A DNA stretch of 64,000 bases, taken from contig NZ_JAHKKG010000002.1 of NCBI RefSeq assembly GCF_018829635.1, positions 1 to 64,000 on the forward strand, read 5' to 3'. Every line of letters begins with the position of its first letter. Within the stretch, counting starts at the first letter, position 1. Made by a program: the position numbers and the translations under genes. Positions 22,177 to 60,265 of the stretch are shown in pieces. Source of the stretch: Paractinoplanes bogorensis (GTDB taxonomy: Bacteria; Actinomycetota; Actinomycetes; Mycobacteriales; Micromonosporaceae). The notes under the pieces are model-generated. The model did no database searches. It saw only the letters and a program-made list of their open reading frames with translations, and was not told the DNA's origin.

Positions 22177-22780
22177 CCCGTCAACGCGAAAACCCCAGAG
22201 CACAAAACCGTTTCCCCGTACGCCGGGGAGCCGCCGCCCGCGCCCGCCGCCCGCACCCGGCGCCGGTCCGTTTCAGCTGTCCAGCTCCGCCCGCTTCGAG
22301 CCGCGCCGCGCATCTCGGGAAACAACGAGCCGCTCGGCCCGCCGCCACCGAGCCGCCACCGAGCCGGCATTGAGCCGCTCGACCCGCCGCCACCGAGCCG
22401 CTCGATCCGCGCACCCCGCAAAGCCGAGACGCTCGACCCGCGCACCCGAGACGCTCCACCCGACAGCGCCAAGCCGCTCGACCCGCGCACCCGAGACGCT
22501 CCACCCGACAGCGCCAAGCCGCTCGACCCGCGCACCCGAGACGCTCCACCCGACAGCGCCGCGCCGGTCGGGCCGCGCACCCGAGACGCTCGACTCGACA
22601 GCGTCAAGCCGCTCGAGCCGCACACCGCAAAGCCGGGACGCTCGACCCGACGGCGCCGAGCCGGGCGGGCCGCGGTCCCGCAGTGCCGGCTGTTCGGGCT
22701 GGCCAGGGGCTCCTTCGCCATGTGCTGAACACGCAAGGAAACAACTTGGAAACAGCCGGTTGACGCCTGCGCGGAGAAAG
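22177..22780. repeat. intergenic region with 45-bp tandem array
   Basis: No credible gene in this 0.6-kb gap. From about 22390 to 22650 a 45-bp unit recurs; the phrase acccgagacgctc starts at 22444, 22489, 22534 and 22579, with degenerate copies on both sides. A small hairpin (tccccg/cgggga at 22213-22229) may terminate the alkB transcript. Minus-strand open frames across the array are repeat artefacts. Confidence 0.8.
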
Positions 22781-22797: not shown

Positions 22798-22850
22798 ATA
22801 GTTGACCTTCACGCTCCACAGAGGACGCCACCCCGAGCCCCGAGGTGACC

Positions 22851-23552
22851 ATGTCAACGGAATCCGCCGATCCTGGATTGGCCCTGCACCACATCACCGT
22901 CCGATTCGGCGGGCTGCTGGCCCTCGACGACGTCTCGCTCCGCGTACCGCCCGGCCGGGTCGTCGGCATCATCGGGCCCAACGGCGCCGGCAAGACCACG
23001 CTCTTCAACGTCATCTGCGGCTTCGTCACGCCGCAGTCAGGGGCGCTCACGCTCGACGGGCGCCCGTTCCGGCCCCGGCCGCACCAGCTCAGCGGCCGCG
23101 GCATCACCCGCACCCTGCAGGGCGTCGGCCAGTTCAACGGCATGACCGTGCTCGAGAACGTGCAGGTCGGCGCGCGCCGCCGGGACGACGACGCCTGGGC
23201 CGCGCTGGAACGGTGCGAGGTCGCCGAGCATGCGCATCGGAGACCGGGCGAACTCCCGTACGCGAAAAGGAAGCGAGTCGAACTGGCCCGCGCTCTCGCC
23301 GCGCGGCCGCGGATCCTGATGCTGGACGAACCGGCGGGCGGCCTCGACACCGACGAGATCCGCTGGCTGGCCGACCTCATCCGCGACACCGAGAGCACGG
23401 TCCTGCTGGTCGAGCACCACATGGAACTGGTCATGTCGGTCTGCGACGAGATCCTCGTGCTCGACTTCGGCAAACCGATCGCGCTCGGCACCCCGGGCGA
23501 GATCCGGAGCAACGACCGGGTCGCCGAGGCTTACCTGGGAACGGCCGCATGA
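22851..23552 (+). CDS. livG: branched-chain amino-acid-type ABC transporter ATPase (LivG)
   Basis: 233 residues. Walker A GPNGAGKTT (about 43-51), Walker B RILMLDEPAGGLD and H-loop LLVEHHMELV. The signature motif is unusual: LPYAKRKRVELARAL where LivG proteins usually have LSYGQ or LPYG. ATG at 22851 is chosen because GAGGTG precedes it by 5 nt; a GTG 6 nt upstream is part of that ribosome site. First gene of a cluster linked by overlaps. Confidence 0.88.
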   Translation: MSTESADPGLALHHITVRFGGLLALDDVSLRVPPGRVVGIIGPNGAGKTTLFNVICGFVTPQSGALTLDGRPFRPRPHQLSGRGITRTLQGVGQFNGMTVLENVQVGARRRDDDAWAALERCEVAEHAHRRPGELPYAKRKRVELARALAARPRILMLDEPAGGLDTDEIRWLADLIRDTESTVLLVEHHMELVMSVCDEILVLDFGKPIALGTPGEIRSNDRVAEAYLGTAA

Positions 23553-24253
23553 GCGCGCTGCTCGAGGTCGAGGGGCTGACCGCCGGTTACGGAGCCGCCC
23601 CGGTGCTGCACGATGTCAGCCTCACCGTCCAGCCTGGACAGATTGTGGCCGTGCTGGGGGCCAATGGCGCGGGCAAATCCACCCTTCTCCGTACGCTGTC
23701 CGGCCTCCTTCGCGCGCAGAAAGGACGAATCGCGCTCGAGGGTCAAGACCTGACGAAGATCAAGGTCGAGCATCTCGTACGCCACGGCATCGCGCACGTC
23801 CCCGAGGGCCGGGGCGTCGTCACCGAACTCACCGTCGAGGAAAATCTGCGGCTCGGCGGCCTCTGGCGCAAACCGCAGCCCTCCCTGGAACCGATCTACG
23901 AGCTGTTCCCCCGCCTGGCCGAGCGCCGCCACAACGAGGGCCACCAGCTCTCCGGCGGCGAACGGCAGATGCTCGCGCTCGGTCGTGCCCTGGTCGCCCA
24001 GCCGAAGCTGCTGCTGCTCGACGAGCCGTCCCTCGGCCTGGCCCCCAAGATCACGGCGCAGATCATGGCGCTGCTGCGAGACCTGCGCGACCGTACCGGC
24101 CTGGCCGTGCTGCTGGTCGAGCAGAACGTCCGCAGCGCCTTGTCGATCGCCGACGAGGGCATCGTGCTGTCGCTGGGCCGCATCGTCACCCGCCACGACG
24201 CCGCGACGCTGGTCGACGACGCCGACCTCCGGCACGCCTACCTGGGGTTCTGA
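23549..24253 (+). CDS. livF: branched-chain amino-acid-type ABC transporter ATPase (LivF)
   Basis: 234 residues. Walker A GANGAGKST, signature LSGGERQMLALGRAL, Walker B LLLLDEPSLGLAP, H-loop LLVEQNV, and the LivF-specific AHVPEGRGVVTELTVEENL. Pairs with LivG in the heteromeric ATPase. ATGA overlap with livG. Confidence 0.92.
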   Translation: MSALLEVEGLTAGYGAAPVLHDVSLTVQPGQIVAVLGANGAGKSTLLRTLSGLLRAQKGRIALEGQDLTKIKVEHLVRHGIAHVPEGRGVVTELTVEENLRLGGLWRKPQPSLEPIYELFPRLAERRHNEGHQLSGGERQMLALGRALVAQPKLLLLDEPSLGLAPKITAQIMALLRDLRDRTGLAVLLVEQNVRSALSIADEGIVLSLGRIVTRHDAATLVDDADLRHAYLGF

Positions 24254-24254
24254 C

Positions 24255-25133
24255 ATGGACAGATTCGTCTTCCTGACGTTCGACGGCCTCAGCCGGGGTG
24301 CTGTCTACGCCGCGTTCGCGCTGGCCCTGGTGCTGATCTGGCGGGCCGCCCGGATCGTCAACTTCGCGCAGGGCGCCATGGCCGTCGCCACCGCCTACGT
24401 GGGCTATTCGGTGGCCGACGCGACCGGCTCGTACTGGCTCGGGTTCGTCGTCGCGATCGTGGCCGGCCTGCTGCTGGGCGCCGGGGTCGAGCGGGTGGTG
24501 ATGCGCTTCGTCGACCATTCGTCCCCGCTCAACGGCGTGGTCGTCGCGCTCGGGCTCGTGCTGATCATCCAGGGCGTGCTGGGCATGCTCTACGGCAACG
24601 AGTTCCGCCCGGCCGCGGCCCCGTTCAGCCGCGACGCGTTCGAGATCGGCGGGGTCGCGCTGCTGTCCCGCTACGACCTCTTCGTGTTCGCCGCTGTGGG
24701 TGCGGTGGTCGTGTTGCTCACGCTTCTTTTCACCCGTACGCCCACAGGTCTGCGCATGCGAGCGGCGGCGTTCGCGCCCGACGTGTCAAGGCTGCTCGGC
24801 GTCTCGGTCGGCGGCATGCTCACGCTCGGCTGGGCCTTGGCCGCCGCCGTGGGCTCGCTGGCGGGCATGCTCGTCCTCCCGACCGAGTTGGGCCTGCACC
24901 CCACCGCGATGGACGTCGTCTTCATCTCGGCCTTCACCGCGGCCGTGCTCGGCGGTCTCGACAGCCCGATCGGTTCGGTGCTCGGCGGCCTGCTGGTCGG
25001 GTTGCTGCTCTCCTACATCAGCGGCTACCTGGGCGCGACGGTCGCCCCGATGGCCGTGCTGGCCCTGCTCGTGATCGTGCTGCTGAGCCGCCCCGACGGC
25101 TTGTTCGCCCGCTCGAAAGCGAGAACAGCATGA
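24255..25133 (+). CDS. livH: branched-chain amino-acid-type ABC permease (LivH)
   Basis: 292 residues, eight or nine membrane helices; LivH hallmarks are the N-terminal GAVYAAFALALVLIWRAARI, FAQGAMA, and the late AFTAAVLGGLDSPIGSVLGG (EAA-like loop). It starts one base after the livF stop. Its last codons (RSKARTA-stop) are repeated at the end of the following repeat ORF. Confidence 0.92.
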   Translation: MDRFVFLTFDGLSRGAVYAAFALALVLIWRAARIVNFAQGAMAVATAYVGYSVADATGSYWLGFVVAIVAGLLLGAGVERVVMRFVDHSSPLNGVVVALGLVLIIQGVLGMLYGNEFRPAAAPFSRDAFEIGGVALLSRYDLFVFAAVGAVVVLLTLLFTRTPTGLRMRAAAFAPDVSRLLGVSVGGMLTLGWALAAAVGSLAGMLVLPTELGLHPTAMDVVFISAFTAAVLGGLDSPIGSVLGGLLVGLLLSYISGYLGATVAPMAVLALLVIVLLSRPDGLFARSKARTA

Positions 25134-25492
25134 GCGCCTCCGCAGCCCAGCGCCCGATCCGGGCCGGCGCCTCCACGAGCCGGCGCCCGATCCGGGCCAG
25201 CGCCTTCACGGTCCAACGCCCGATCCGGGCCAACGCCTTCACGGGCCGGCGCCCGATCCAGGGCGAGAGCAGCACAAGTGCATCCCACGACCGACGCGCG
25301 ATCCGGGGCGTGAACAGCACGAGTGCATTCCACGGCCGACGCCCGATCCAGAGCGAGAACTACACAAACGCTTTCCGCGGCCGACGCGCCATCCGGGGCG
25401 AGAACAGCACAAACGCTTTCCGCGGCCGGCGCCCGGCCCAGGACGAGAACAGCACGAGCCCGACCGCCCGATCGGAAGCGAGGACCGCGTGA
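25130..25492 (+). CDS. repeat open reading frame bridging livH and livM
   Basis: 120 codons, ATG overlapping the livH stop (ATGA) and stop overlapping the livM GTG (GTGA). It encodes three 11-residue units of the RRPIRANAFTG type, then about five 15-residue units (RRAIRGENSTNAFRG), ending TARSEARTA. Many Arg and no hydrophobic core, so a folded protein is unlikely. The nucleotide unit copies the livH 3' end and downstream bases, with the stop TGA turned into CGA or CAA. Because frame is kept, ribosomes could travel from livH to livM. Whether the product accumulates is unknown. Confidence 0.5.
   Translation: MSASAAQRPIRAGASTSRRPIRASAFTVQRPIRANAFTGRRPIQGESSTSASHDRRAIRGVNSTSAFHGRRPIQSENYTNAFRGRRAIRGENSTNAFRGRRPAQDENSTSPTARSEARTA
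25131..25480 (+). repeat. 33/45-bp tandem array in the livH-livM junction
   Basis: Units carry the pattern GCGAGAACAGCA followed by CGATCCGG-type sequence; the same words occur at the livH stop (25117-25133). A copy of the livH tail (28 bp, about 23 identical) closes the array immediately before livM, which indicates expansion by tandem duplication of the gene junction. Confidence 0.75.
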
Positions 25493-26511
25493 CTGTGATC
25501 GGAGATCGGGTCGCCCGAGCCACCAGAACGGCCGCGCCGCGGAGGAGCCGGCTCAGCCCGTTCATCGTCGTGGTGGTCGGGGCGGTGATCGTGGTGGCGC
25601 TGACCTACACGTTGCCGCCGTTCCGCACCTATCAGCTGGCGACCGTCGGCGCCTACCTCTGTGTGACGGCGGGGCTGACCGTCCTCACCGGACTCAACGG
25701 GCAACTCTCGCTGGGCCACGGCGCGCTGATGGCGACCGGGGCATACACGCTGGCGCTCTGGCAGAACAAGTTCAACCTGCTGCTCCCCGGCATCCTGGTC
25801 GCGATCCTGGTCACCACGGCCGTCGGGGCAGTGATCGGGCTGGCCGCGGCGCGACTCCGGGGGCCCTATCTGGCCGGTCTGACGCTGGCCGTCGCGGTCG
25901 TCGTCCCCAGCATCACCAGCACGTTCGACGAGACGTTCAACAGCGACCAGGGCCTGTCGGTCATCCTCAATCCGCCGCCCGACTCGATGACCGTCGAGCA
26001 GTGGCAGGCCTGGGTGTGCTGGGGCGGCGCCCTGATCACGGTGCTGGCCCTGGCGCTGCTGACGCGCGGTCGTTTCGGGCGGGACATGCGGGCCGTACGC
26101 GACGACGAAACCGCGGCTCGTCTTGCGGGTATCAGCGTCGCCCGTACGCAAGTAACCGCCTTTGTCATCTCCGCTGCCTGCGCCGGTCTCGCGGGCGCCC
26201 TGTTCGCGATCATCGCCCAGAGCGTCTCTCCCGGCGCCTTCCCGCTCACCCTGTCGCTGTTCCTGCTGATGGCAATCGTCATCGGCGGGCTCGGCCGGCT
26301 CACCGGCGCCCTGCTCGGCGCGGTGCTGCTGGTCGCGCTACCCGCGGTCGCCCACGAGATCGGCGTGGCGGCCGGCTCGCAGCGCCTCGAGGGCAACCTC
26401 GCACTCACGTTCTTCGGCGTCGTCCTGGTCGTCGTCATGCTCGCCGCCCCCGGCGGGCTCGCCTCCTTGCGACTCCCCACCCGTCGCAAACGCGTGGAAC
26501 CGCCGCCGTAA
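25489..26511 (+). CDS. livM: branched-chain amino-acid-type ABC permease (LivM)
   Basis: 340 residues from GTG, about ten membrane helices. LivM hallmarks: GLNGQLSLGHGALMATGAY near residue 75 and the cytoplasmic loop GRFGRDMRAVRDDETAARLA followed by GISVARTQVTAFVIS. It pairs with LivH. Its start overlaps the preceding repeat frame. Confidence 0.92.
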   Translation: MTVIGDRVARATRTAAPRRSRLSPFIVVVVGAVIVVALTYTLPPFRTYQLATVGAYLCVTAGLTVLTGLNGQLSLGHGALMATGAYTLALWQNKFNLLLPGILVAILVTTAVGAVIGLAAARLRGPYLAGLTLAVAVVVPSITSTFDETFNSDQGLSVILNPPPDSMTVEQWQAWVCWGGALITVLALALLTRGRFGRDMRAVRDDETAARLAGISVARTQVTAFVISAACAGLAGALFAIIAQSVSPGAFPLTLSLFLLMAIVIGGLGRLTGALLGAVLLVALPAVAHEIGVAAGSQRLEGNLALTFFGVVLVVVMLAAPGGLASLRLPTRRKRVEPPP

Positions 26512-27001
26512 GCCCGCGCAGCATCCACCCCCGTAAGCCGCGCGGCATCCACCTCCATAAGCCCGCGCGGCATCCAGCCCCGCAAGCCCGCGCAGCATCC
26601 ACCTCCATAAGCCCGCGCGGCACCTGCCGAAGCCCTTACTGCGATTGCCGACGTAAGCCCCGTGGGCCCGCCGCGCAAAGCCCGACCCGGCCTCCCGACC
26701 ACCATCCGACCGTCCAGGGCACTCGACACCGAAACCCGGCCGTCCCCACACATACCCAGATCACAAGCCAACCGCCCGCACCGCGAGTCGGCCGTCTCAC
26801 ACACCCGCACCGCGAGTCGGCCGTCTCACACACCCGGGTCACAAGCCAACCGCCCCCCATACGCGCACCAACCGCCGTCGCCAGCGCCGAATCGCGCGAG
26901 CGACGCACCCACCCCGCCACCCCCAGGCGGCCCGAAATGTTCCAACAGTCCCGATCGAACAGGTCGGCATCCCGGATAGACACCGCGCAGAAAGGCCGAT
27001 G
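26512..27001. repeat. intergenic region with 25-bp and 29-bp arrays
   Basis: No gene seen in these 490 bp. From 26512 to about 26625 a unit of about 25 bp recurs (gcatcc at 26521, 26545, 26570, 26595). A second array of a 29-bp unit (cgcaccgcgagtcggccgtc at 26777 and 26806) follows, flanked by two copies of tcacaagccaaccgccc. The region sits inside the transporter cluster, between livM and the binding-protein gene, so that gene may need its own promoter. Confidence 0.75.
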
Positions 27002-28267
27002 ATGAAACGCACCGCGACCATCCTCACCGCCGTGCTGCTGGCCGCGGCCGGCTGCAGCAACTCGGGCGGCAGCAGTGGCGGCAGCAGCAGCGCCGACACC
27101 CCGGGCGTGACCGACACCGAGATCGTGGTCGGCACGCACATGCCGCTCACCGGTCCGGCCGCGGCCGGCTACTCGAAGATCGCGCCGGCCACCAAGGCCT
27201 ACTTCGATTACGTCAACGCGAACGGCGGCGTGCACGGCCGCAAGATCACCTACAAGATCATGGATGACGGGTACAACCCGGCGAACACGCAGCAGGTCGT
27301 ACGGCAGCTGGTGTTGCAGGACAAGGTGTTCGCGATCCTCAACGGCCTCGGCACCCCGACCCACAGCGGCGTGCTCGACTTCCTCAAGACCAACCGGGTG
27401 CCCGACCTGTTCGTGGCCAGCGGCAGCCGCAGCTGGAACCAGCCCGACAAATATCCGGGCACGTTCGGGTTCAACCCGGACTACACGGTCGAGGGCAAGA
27501 TCCTGGCGACGCACATCAAGGAGGCGTACGCCGGAAAGAAGGTCTGTTTCCTCGGCCAGGACGACGATTTCGGACGGGACAGCCTGGCCGGCGTCGAGAA
27601 GGTGCTCGGGGCGGTCGCGGCGAAGCAGACCTATGTGACCAGCAACCCGAACGTCGGCCCGCAGATCGGTGCGCTCAAGGCGGCCGCGTGCCAGGTCGTC
27701 GTGCTGGCCACGGTGCCCGGTTTCACCGCGCTGTCGATCGGCACCGCGGCCAAGATCGGGTTCAAGCCGCAGTTCGTGGTGAGCAACGTCGGTTCCGACC
27801 CGACCACGCTGGCCAAGACGCTGGGTGACGCGGCTCCGCTGCTCGAGGGGGTCGTCGCCGCGAACTATCTGCCGCTGGCCAACGACACTCAGAACCCGTG
27901 GATCCAGCTCTACACCAAGGTCAACACGCAGTACAACGCCGGCGCCGAGATGGACAACAACGTCGTGTACGGCATGTCCGTCGCCTATCTGTTCGTCCAG
28001 GCTCTGCAGGCGGCCGGCAAGGATCTGACCCGCGACGGCATCACCGCTGCGGTGGCCAAGGGTGGCTTCACCGGACCGGGTCTGGTGCCCGTCCGCTACT
28101 CGGCGACCGACCATTCCGGGTACGCCGGCGAGCAGCTGACGACCATCGAGAAGGGCGTCGCCAAGTATTTCGGCAAGCCGTACCGCACCGACGACGGTGA
28201 CGGCGCGGTCGAGGCCTACGAGGCGGCGGCCGTGGCCCCGCCTGCAAACGGCATCCCCGCTGCTTAG
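27002..28267 (+). CDS. substrate-binding lipoprotein of the transporter
   Basis: 421 residues. A lipoprotein signal (LLAAAGC, Cys at about residue 18) is followed by a Gly/Ser linker and a type I periplasmic-binding domain (Peripla_BP_6): TEIVVGTHMPLTGPAAAGY, FLKTNRVPDLFVASGSRSW, VCFLGQDDDFGRDSLAGV. It captures the ligand outside the membrane for the LivGFHM importer. An ATG 3 bp earlier is equally in frame; AGAAAGG spacing favours the second. These proteins also take up aromatic acids and short-chain acids, so the amino-acid label is only a family name. Confidence 0.9.
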   Translation: MKRTATILTAVLLAAAGCSNSGGSSGGSSSADTPGVTDTEIVVGTHMPLTGPAAAGYSKIAPATKAYFDYVNANGGVHGRKITYKIMDDGYNPANTQQVVRQLVLQDKVFAILNGLGTPTHSGVLDFLKTNRVPDLFVASGSRSWNQPDKYPGTFGFNPDYTVEGKILATHIKEAYAGKKVCFLGQDDDFGRDSLAGVEKVLGAVAAKQTYVTSNPNVGPQIGALKAAACQVVVLATVPGFTALSIGTAAKIGFKPQFVVSNVGSDPTTLAKTLGDAAPLLEGVVAANYLPLANDTQNPWIQLYTKVNTQYNAGAEMDNNVVYGMSVAYLFVQALQAAGKDLTRDGITAAVAKGGFTGPGLVPVRYSATDHSGYAGEQLTTIEKGVAKYFGKPYRTDDGDGAVEAYEAAAVAPPANGIPAA

Positions 28268-60031: not shown

Positions 60032-60202
60032 GTGGTGAGCCGGCTGCGCGATGAGATCTCCCGCCGCGCCGACTTCAGCGGAGCCGACGTGCCCACCCGG
60101 GTGGCCCGGGTGCTGCTGGCGCCCGCCGACCGGCACGCTGCGACGCTCAGGCGAACCCCCGCCCGAGCTAACGCCGCGCGGTCGAGCCGTCGCCCGAGCT
60201 AA
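60032..60202 (+). pseudogene. CRP/FNR-family fragment
   Basis: The frame reads VVSRLRDEISRRADFSGADV then PTRVARVLLAPADRH, matching the hinge between the cAMP-binding domain and HTH of actinobacterial CRP-family regulators (SRRLREADRRR...DVPTRVARLLLELA). Just after this the sequence dissolves into a 31-bp repeat array. No effector domain or HTH is present. Confidence 0.5.
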
Positions 60203-60265
60203 CGCCACGCGGTCGAGCCGTCGCCCGAGCTAACGCCGCGCTGTCGAGCCGTCGCCCGGGGCGAA
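60155..60265. repeat. 31-bp tandem array
   Basis: gcccgagctaacgcc recurs with period 31 (the cgag phase at 60066+99, i.e. 60165, 60196, 60227), followed by a degenerate copy. The remainder of 60018-60321 shows no intact gene. Confidence 0.7.

Follow-up and report, generated by a model that had tools for sequence, protein, structure and literature searches.

A tandem repeat lies between two permease genes of an ABC transporter operon, and it is open in frame from one gene to the other. How could such an insert arise at this position, and could ribosomes pass through it from the first permease gene to the second?

The liv-type operon and its interrupted junction

The window, the whole 64,000-nucleotide stretch analysed here, is part of contig C22; the genome measures 10.2 Mb, and its nearest named relatives are Actinoplanes and Paractinoplanes species. 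From ORFs and Pfam matches, the operon is ordered livG-like, livF-like, livH-like, livM-like and binding-protein gene. Another 65 genomes of the genus carry livH orthologues, which are 82-96% identical. Both permeases match Pfam BPD_transp_2, and their NCBIfam LivH and LivM scores fall far under the curated cut-offs; the names livH and livM therefore denote a type and not a substrate. The genes and the ORF between the permeases are as follows.

22845-23552: livG-like gene, operon member
23549-24253: livF-like gene, operon member
24255..25133, + strand: livH-like permease gene (ORF; Pfam PF02653, E 2e-28)
25130..25492, + strand: bridge ORF of 120 codons, starting inside the livH TGA and ending inside the livM GTGA
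25489..26511, + strand: livM-like permease gene (ORF; Pfam PF02653, E 1e-40)
26999-28267: binding-protein gene, operon member

Further GC-rich tandem arrays are found in the window at 1-300, 22326-22626, 26506-26622, 26775-26836 and 60160-60258. The second, third and fourth of these flank the liv operon, in longer gaps and with no NTGA overlap before them.

Anatomy and origin of the array

The array between the livH-like and livM-like genes was confirmed as ten units of 33 or 45 bp, starting at 25106, 25151, 25184, 25217, 25250, 25295, 25340, 25385, 25430 and 25465. Its 33-bp and 45-bp parts were both recovered by TRF and by a separate repeat search.

25106..25150, + strand: unit zero, 45 bp, comprising the livH tail (last 24 nt plus TGA), the stop-start junction and 17 nt (repeat family, unit phase)
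25119..25133, + strand: livH copy of the junction, GCGAGAACAGC-ATGA (sequence)
25151..25249, + strand: three 33-bp units, each 12 nt less than a 45-bp unit (repeat search, unit phase)
25250..25464, + strand: 45-bp units from 25250, 25295, 25340 and 25385, and a 35-bp last step from 25430
25465..25492, + strand: terminal unit, a near copy of the ancestral livH tail, with GAGGA and the livM GTGA overlap

In the livH copy of the junction, the GAGG-type SD core now reads GAGAA, while relatives read GCGAGGACCGC-ATGA; in the units of 25250..25464, the junction-equivalent is ACAA or ACGA, not ATGA. All units through 25430 are offset from unit zero by a multiple of 3. The terminal copy alone is displaced by 2: it lies 359 nt from unit zero (2 mod 3), and its TGA therefore enters the frame opened at ATG 25130. 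The array was not found elsewhere in its own genome, where the next-best match had E 0.0017 over about 40 nt, and a plasmid collection yielded no match.

The preliminary description derived the array from the stop-start junction and placed a near copy of the livH tail directly before livM. Both statements held up. The terminal copy, cgatcggaagcgaggaccgcGTGA, is identical to the window livH tail at 20 of 24 nt, and none of 716 positions in the livH body matches it as well as that tail does. It also closely resembles the tail of livH in one relative (cgatcgaaagcgaggaccgcatga; cgatcgaaagcgaggaccgcATGA; L003). Unit zero is itself the livH tail, and most relatives have a plain ATGA/GTGA overlap at this place. 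Clear junction duplications also occur in L003, L132, L143, L159 and L076.

Reading frame of the bridge

The bridge ORF overlaps livH at ATGA (25130-25133) and livM at GTGA (25489-25492), so the insert is indeed open throughout and overlaps both genes, as first described. Openness of the array counts for little by itself, because a second frame on the + strand and one on the - strand are open too. The predicted peptide is Arg-rich (23 R, computed pI about 12) and ends in ARSEARTA, where livH ends in ARSKARTA.

The opening of the frame had been attributed to a change of TGA to CGA or CAA in the units. That change is real, but it did not open the bridge frame, because those TGAs lie in the livH phase. 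Since each inner unit is offset from unit zero by a multiple of 3, any ATGA still present there would encode an in-frame Met and not a stop. The effect of the ATGA change in the inner units is thus the loss of internal start codons, and it may reflect one mutation copied along with the unit.

Differences between units number 10, 27 and 17 at the first, second and third bridge codon positions; counted by codon, 11 differences are synonymous and 34 nonsynonymous. They are not concentrated at third positions, and unit divergence gives no sign of peptide constraint. Judged from these sequence comparisons, it is frame and openness that seem to be under selection rather than the peptide, which is probably dispensable.

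livH-livM junctions in relatives

We compared junctions at loci that were picked for their similarity to livH or livM, irrespective of junction type, through genus searches and one genome-contig scan. Among 104 distinct junctions, 88 were classed as direct, a class defined by a livH NTGA start in frame with livM that pools direct overlaps with in-frame extensions (class 0 inserts). Fourteen have single-step bridges with ORFs of 6 to 120 codons, and one (L076) has a two-step chain of 20 and then 16 codons (d=59 and 47). The last (L173) was set aside; its livM start is homologous apart from what looks like a 1-bp frameshift. None of the relatives compared has an unrelated gene here; they have direct overlaps or short bridge ORFs instead.

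In all 15 non-extension inserts, an NTGA overlap is present at every step, giving an unbroken ORF chain, and no bridge step of class d = 1 mod 3 occurs among the 104 distinct livH-livM junctions. When the inserts are mapped as a character on a tree built from both permease proteins, at least 13 changes are required. As a null, random tandem junction duplications of 15-120 bp were simulated in direct-overlap species. One third produced in-frame livM extensions, and an intact chain was obtained in 0.515 of the remainder; 13 chains in 13 would then have a probability of 0.515^13 = 1.8e-4, a figure to be read with the inserts of relatives not being fully independent length draws, because several are related dispersed elements of fixed length. 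Simulated duplications of length 2 mod 3 were all open, because in the new ORF the copied head of livM is read in the livM frame and the copied tail of livH in the livH frame. Every insertion change at this junction, of which the tree counts at least 13, left the ORFs linked by stop-start overlaps, and this lends indirect support to the claim of preserved coupling.

The livG-livF junction

The livG-livF junction, also an ATGA overlap, was direct in 57 cases, a chain in 15, broken in two and without the overlap in 12. The chain is thus kept in 15 of 17 inserts, and the two broken cases (L160 and L176) mean that the rule is not absolute. One relative (L075) has three 35-bp units at livG-livF, each an ATGA-to-ATGA micro-ORF.

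Two further arrangements were observed at this junction. In Micromonospora, a unit of about 62 bp, GTGAGCGCGAGGAGTGAGCCGGGTTTGCGAGCCCCGCAGTCGCGAACGAAAGG, is present at GTGA in one to three tandem copies, the number varying between species (L149, L152, L153, L160, L161, L162 and L170). In loci that no longer have the livG-livF overlap, about 13 codons form a micro-ORF (typically MITRTP...GDSR) with a strong SD and a TGA that overlaps the livF start (L098, L116, L121, L124, L127, L136 and L140); by its arrangement, it is a predicted coupled leader ORF.

Bridges, arrays and dispersed elements elsewhere

The survey of the array's own genome covered 1.66 Mb from two contigs, using a crude gene caller and loose criteria. 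For co-directional pairs with an NTGA stop but no direct overlap, an NTGA-chain link was found in 38 of 118, against 87 of 423 for other stops, a modest excess (Fisher p 0.0096). TRF arrays, after merging, numbered 399, of which 131 are intergenic. A second array bridge lies at C11:723090-723281 on the - strand, where 4.3 copies of a 39-bp unit form 70 codons running from ATGA to GTGA between two genes. A count of arrays behind NTGA stops gave an apparently strong signal (7 bridges in 9 non-extension cases, against 5 of 55) but was set aside. Only the window array and C11:723090-723281 are relied upon as clear array bridges, because several of the others probably represent missed genes or arrays that lie outside the bridge.

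A 57-codon bridge ORF with VTGDACRAFVRVRPRAA is present at C22:264580-264752, in single copy in this genome, and is related to the 3' part of another species' bridge (L231).

Relatives also carry an 89-bp insert (MT(D/A)CTERH...) at both liv junctions, in different species. In the four genomes examined, this element is dispersed: each genome has 8-30 matches, some of them tandem with an 89-bp spacing. Most examined copies consist of ATGA/GTGA, a 30-codon ORF and NTGA, and are sited between long ORFs. The loci of the element are L202-L231, L138, L129, L019, L140, L002 and L004; shorter versions at liv junctions (L002, L004 and L129) seem related to it.

A proposed translational relay and its alternatives

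We propose that a duplication of the livH-livM junction grew into the bridge and that the two genes are coupled through it by a translational relay of termination and reinitiation, an account that we consider probable. The ancestor would have had a 4-nt livH/livM overlap (ATGA/GTGA), with the livM ribosome-binding sequence within the livH tail. A tandem duplication of this junction, of length class 2 modulo 3, would have placed a second full copy, SD and stop-start included, before livM, and the ORF from the first ATG would have been open by construction, with its end falling precisely at the second overlap. The insert could then have grown to 120 codons by slippage or unequal exchange in multiples of 3 (33 or 45 bp), and the inner junction copies would have lost ATGA. 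Ribosomes finishing livH would restart at 25130, cross the bridge and restart at livM, which would preserve the coupling of the two permease genes and the translation of the RNA between them. Such translation may also shield the 355-nt stretch from transcription polarity.

A neutral minisatellite would explain much of the same anatomy: the array would still derive from the junction, livM would start by itself from its retained SD, and the open frame would be a by-product of high GC and of units divisible by three. The GAGGA ribosome-binding core is kept in the terminal copy before livM, and with this ancestral-type sequence in place livM could initiate independently; several frames of the array are open, the genome is rich in arrays, and units diverge without peptide constraint. 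We nevertheless regard this account as unlikely, since all 15 non-extension livH-livM inserts are linked where about half would be expected, and the livG-livF pattern is similar. Retention of the ORF as a small basic protein with a role of its own appears improbable. Its frame is open and its GC content by codon position is 0.61/0.70/0.87, but this pattern is not independent evidence because one unit was multiplied; the 120-codon ORF is absent from relatives, has no Pfam or NCBIfam match and lacks a third-position bias between units. Arrival as a dispersed repeat element, a MIRU-type mobile unit inserted here instead of a self-duplication, is suggested by the 89-bp element that relatives carry at livH-livM and other stop-start overlaps. 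It is highly improbable, given that neither the array units nor the 89-bp element is dispersed in this genome, where the latter finds only a 25-bp match, and that unit zero is the livH coding tail, conserved in insert-free relatives. The relay under selection is accordingly the reading we favour, the passage of ribosomes being what we infer from frame and overlap.

The livH-livM junction is, in effect, a natural experiment on translational coupling: inserts recur only in those frame classes through which a ribosome could continue, and this argues for ribosome passage and restart. Junction duplication of the 2 mod 3 class offers a simple route to new short ORFs that leaves the operon unharmed. 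More broadly, and only tentatively, stop-start overlaps may generate relay ORFs: their 2 mod 3 duplications would be tolerated, because joining the downstream head to the upstream tail makes them open by construction, would recur, and could grow into arrays or short proteins or seed dispersed MIRU-like elements.

Comparison with known systems

MIRUs (Supply et al. 1997, pmid 9426136, as described in PMC12548453) are short repeats at a stop-start site, and the ORF inside them is coupled, at a spacing of -4 nt, to the gene that follows, because of which their insertion scarcely affects expression (PMC12548453). Like a MIRU, the window array sits at a stop-start site, and its ORF shares the -4 nt coupling to the following gene (ATGA 25130, GTGA 25489). 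Unlike MIRUs, it occurs at one locus only and derives from the host junction, and its inner units have no stop-start end of their own (ACAA/ACGA) but form one long ORF. Because it departs from MIRUs both in dispersal and in the ends of its units, we do not file it with them; as read from its sequence, it is a single-locus self-duplication. The MIRU-like inserts are instead the 89-bp and 62-bp ones of relatives, and the 89-bp inserts have the MIRU architecture described in PMC12548453, being dispersed and carrying an NTGA-to-NTGA ORF between long ORFs. In the searchable literature, which excluded most subscription journals, we found no description of MIRU-like elements from either Actinoplanes or Micromonospora. 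MIRU-like elements possibly arise by the same 2 mod 3 junction duplication.

At either end of the bridge a stop codon overlaps a start codon, as in termination-reinitiation at ATGA overlaps (PMC6728339, PMC10666635); unlike that known coupling, a third, new ORF of 120 codons stands between the two genes. The proposed role of the bridge resembles that of short coupled uORFs that hand the ribosome on to the following gene (uORF delivery, bicistronic design; PMC12548453). It differs from these delivery uORFs in lying inside an operon and in being long, repetitive and lineage-specific.
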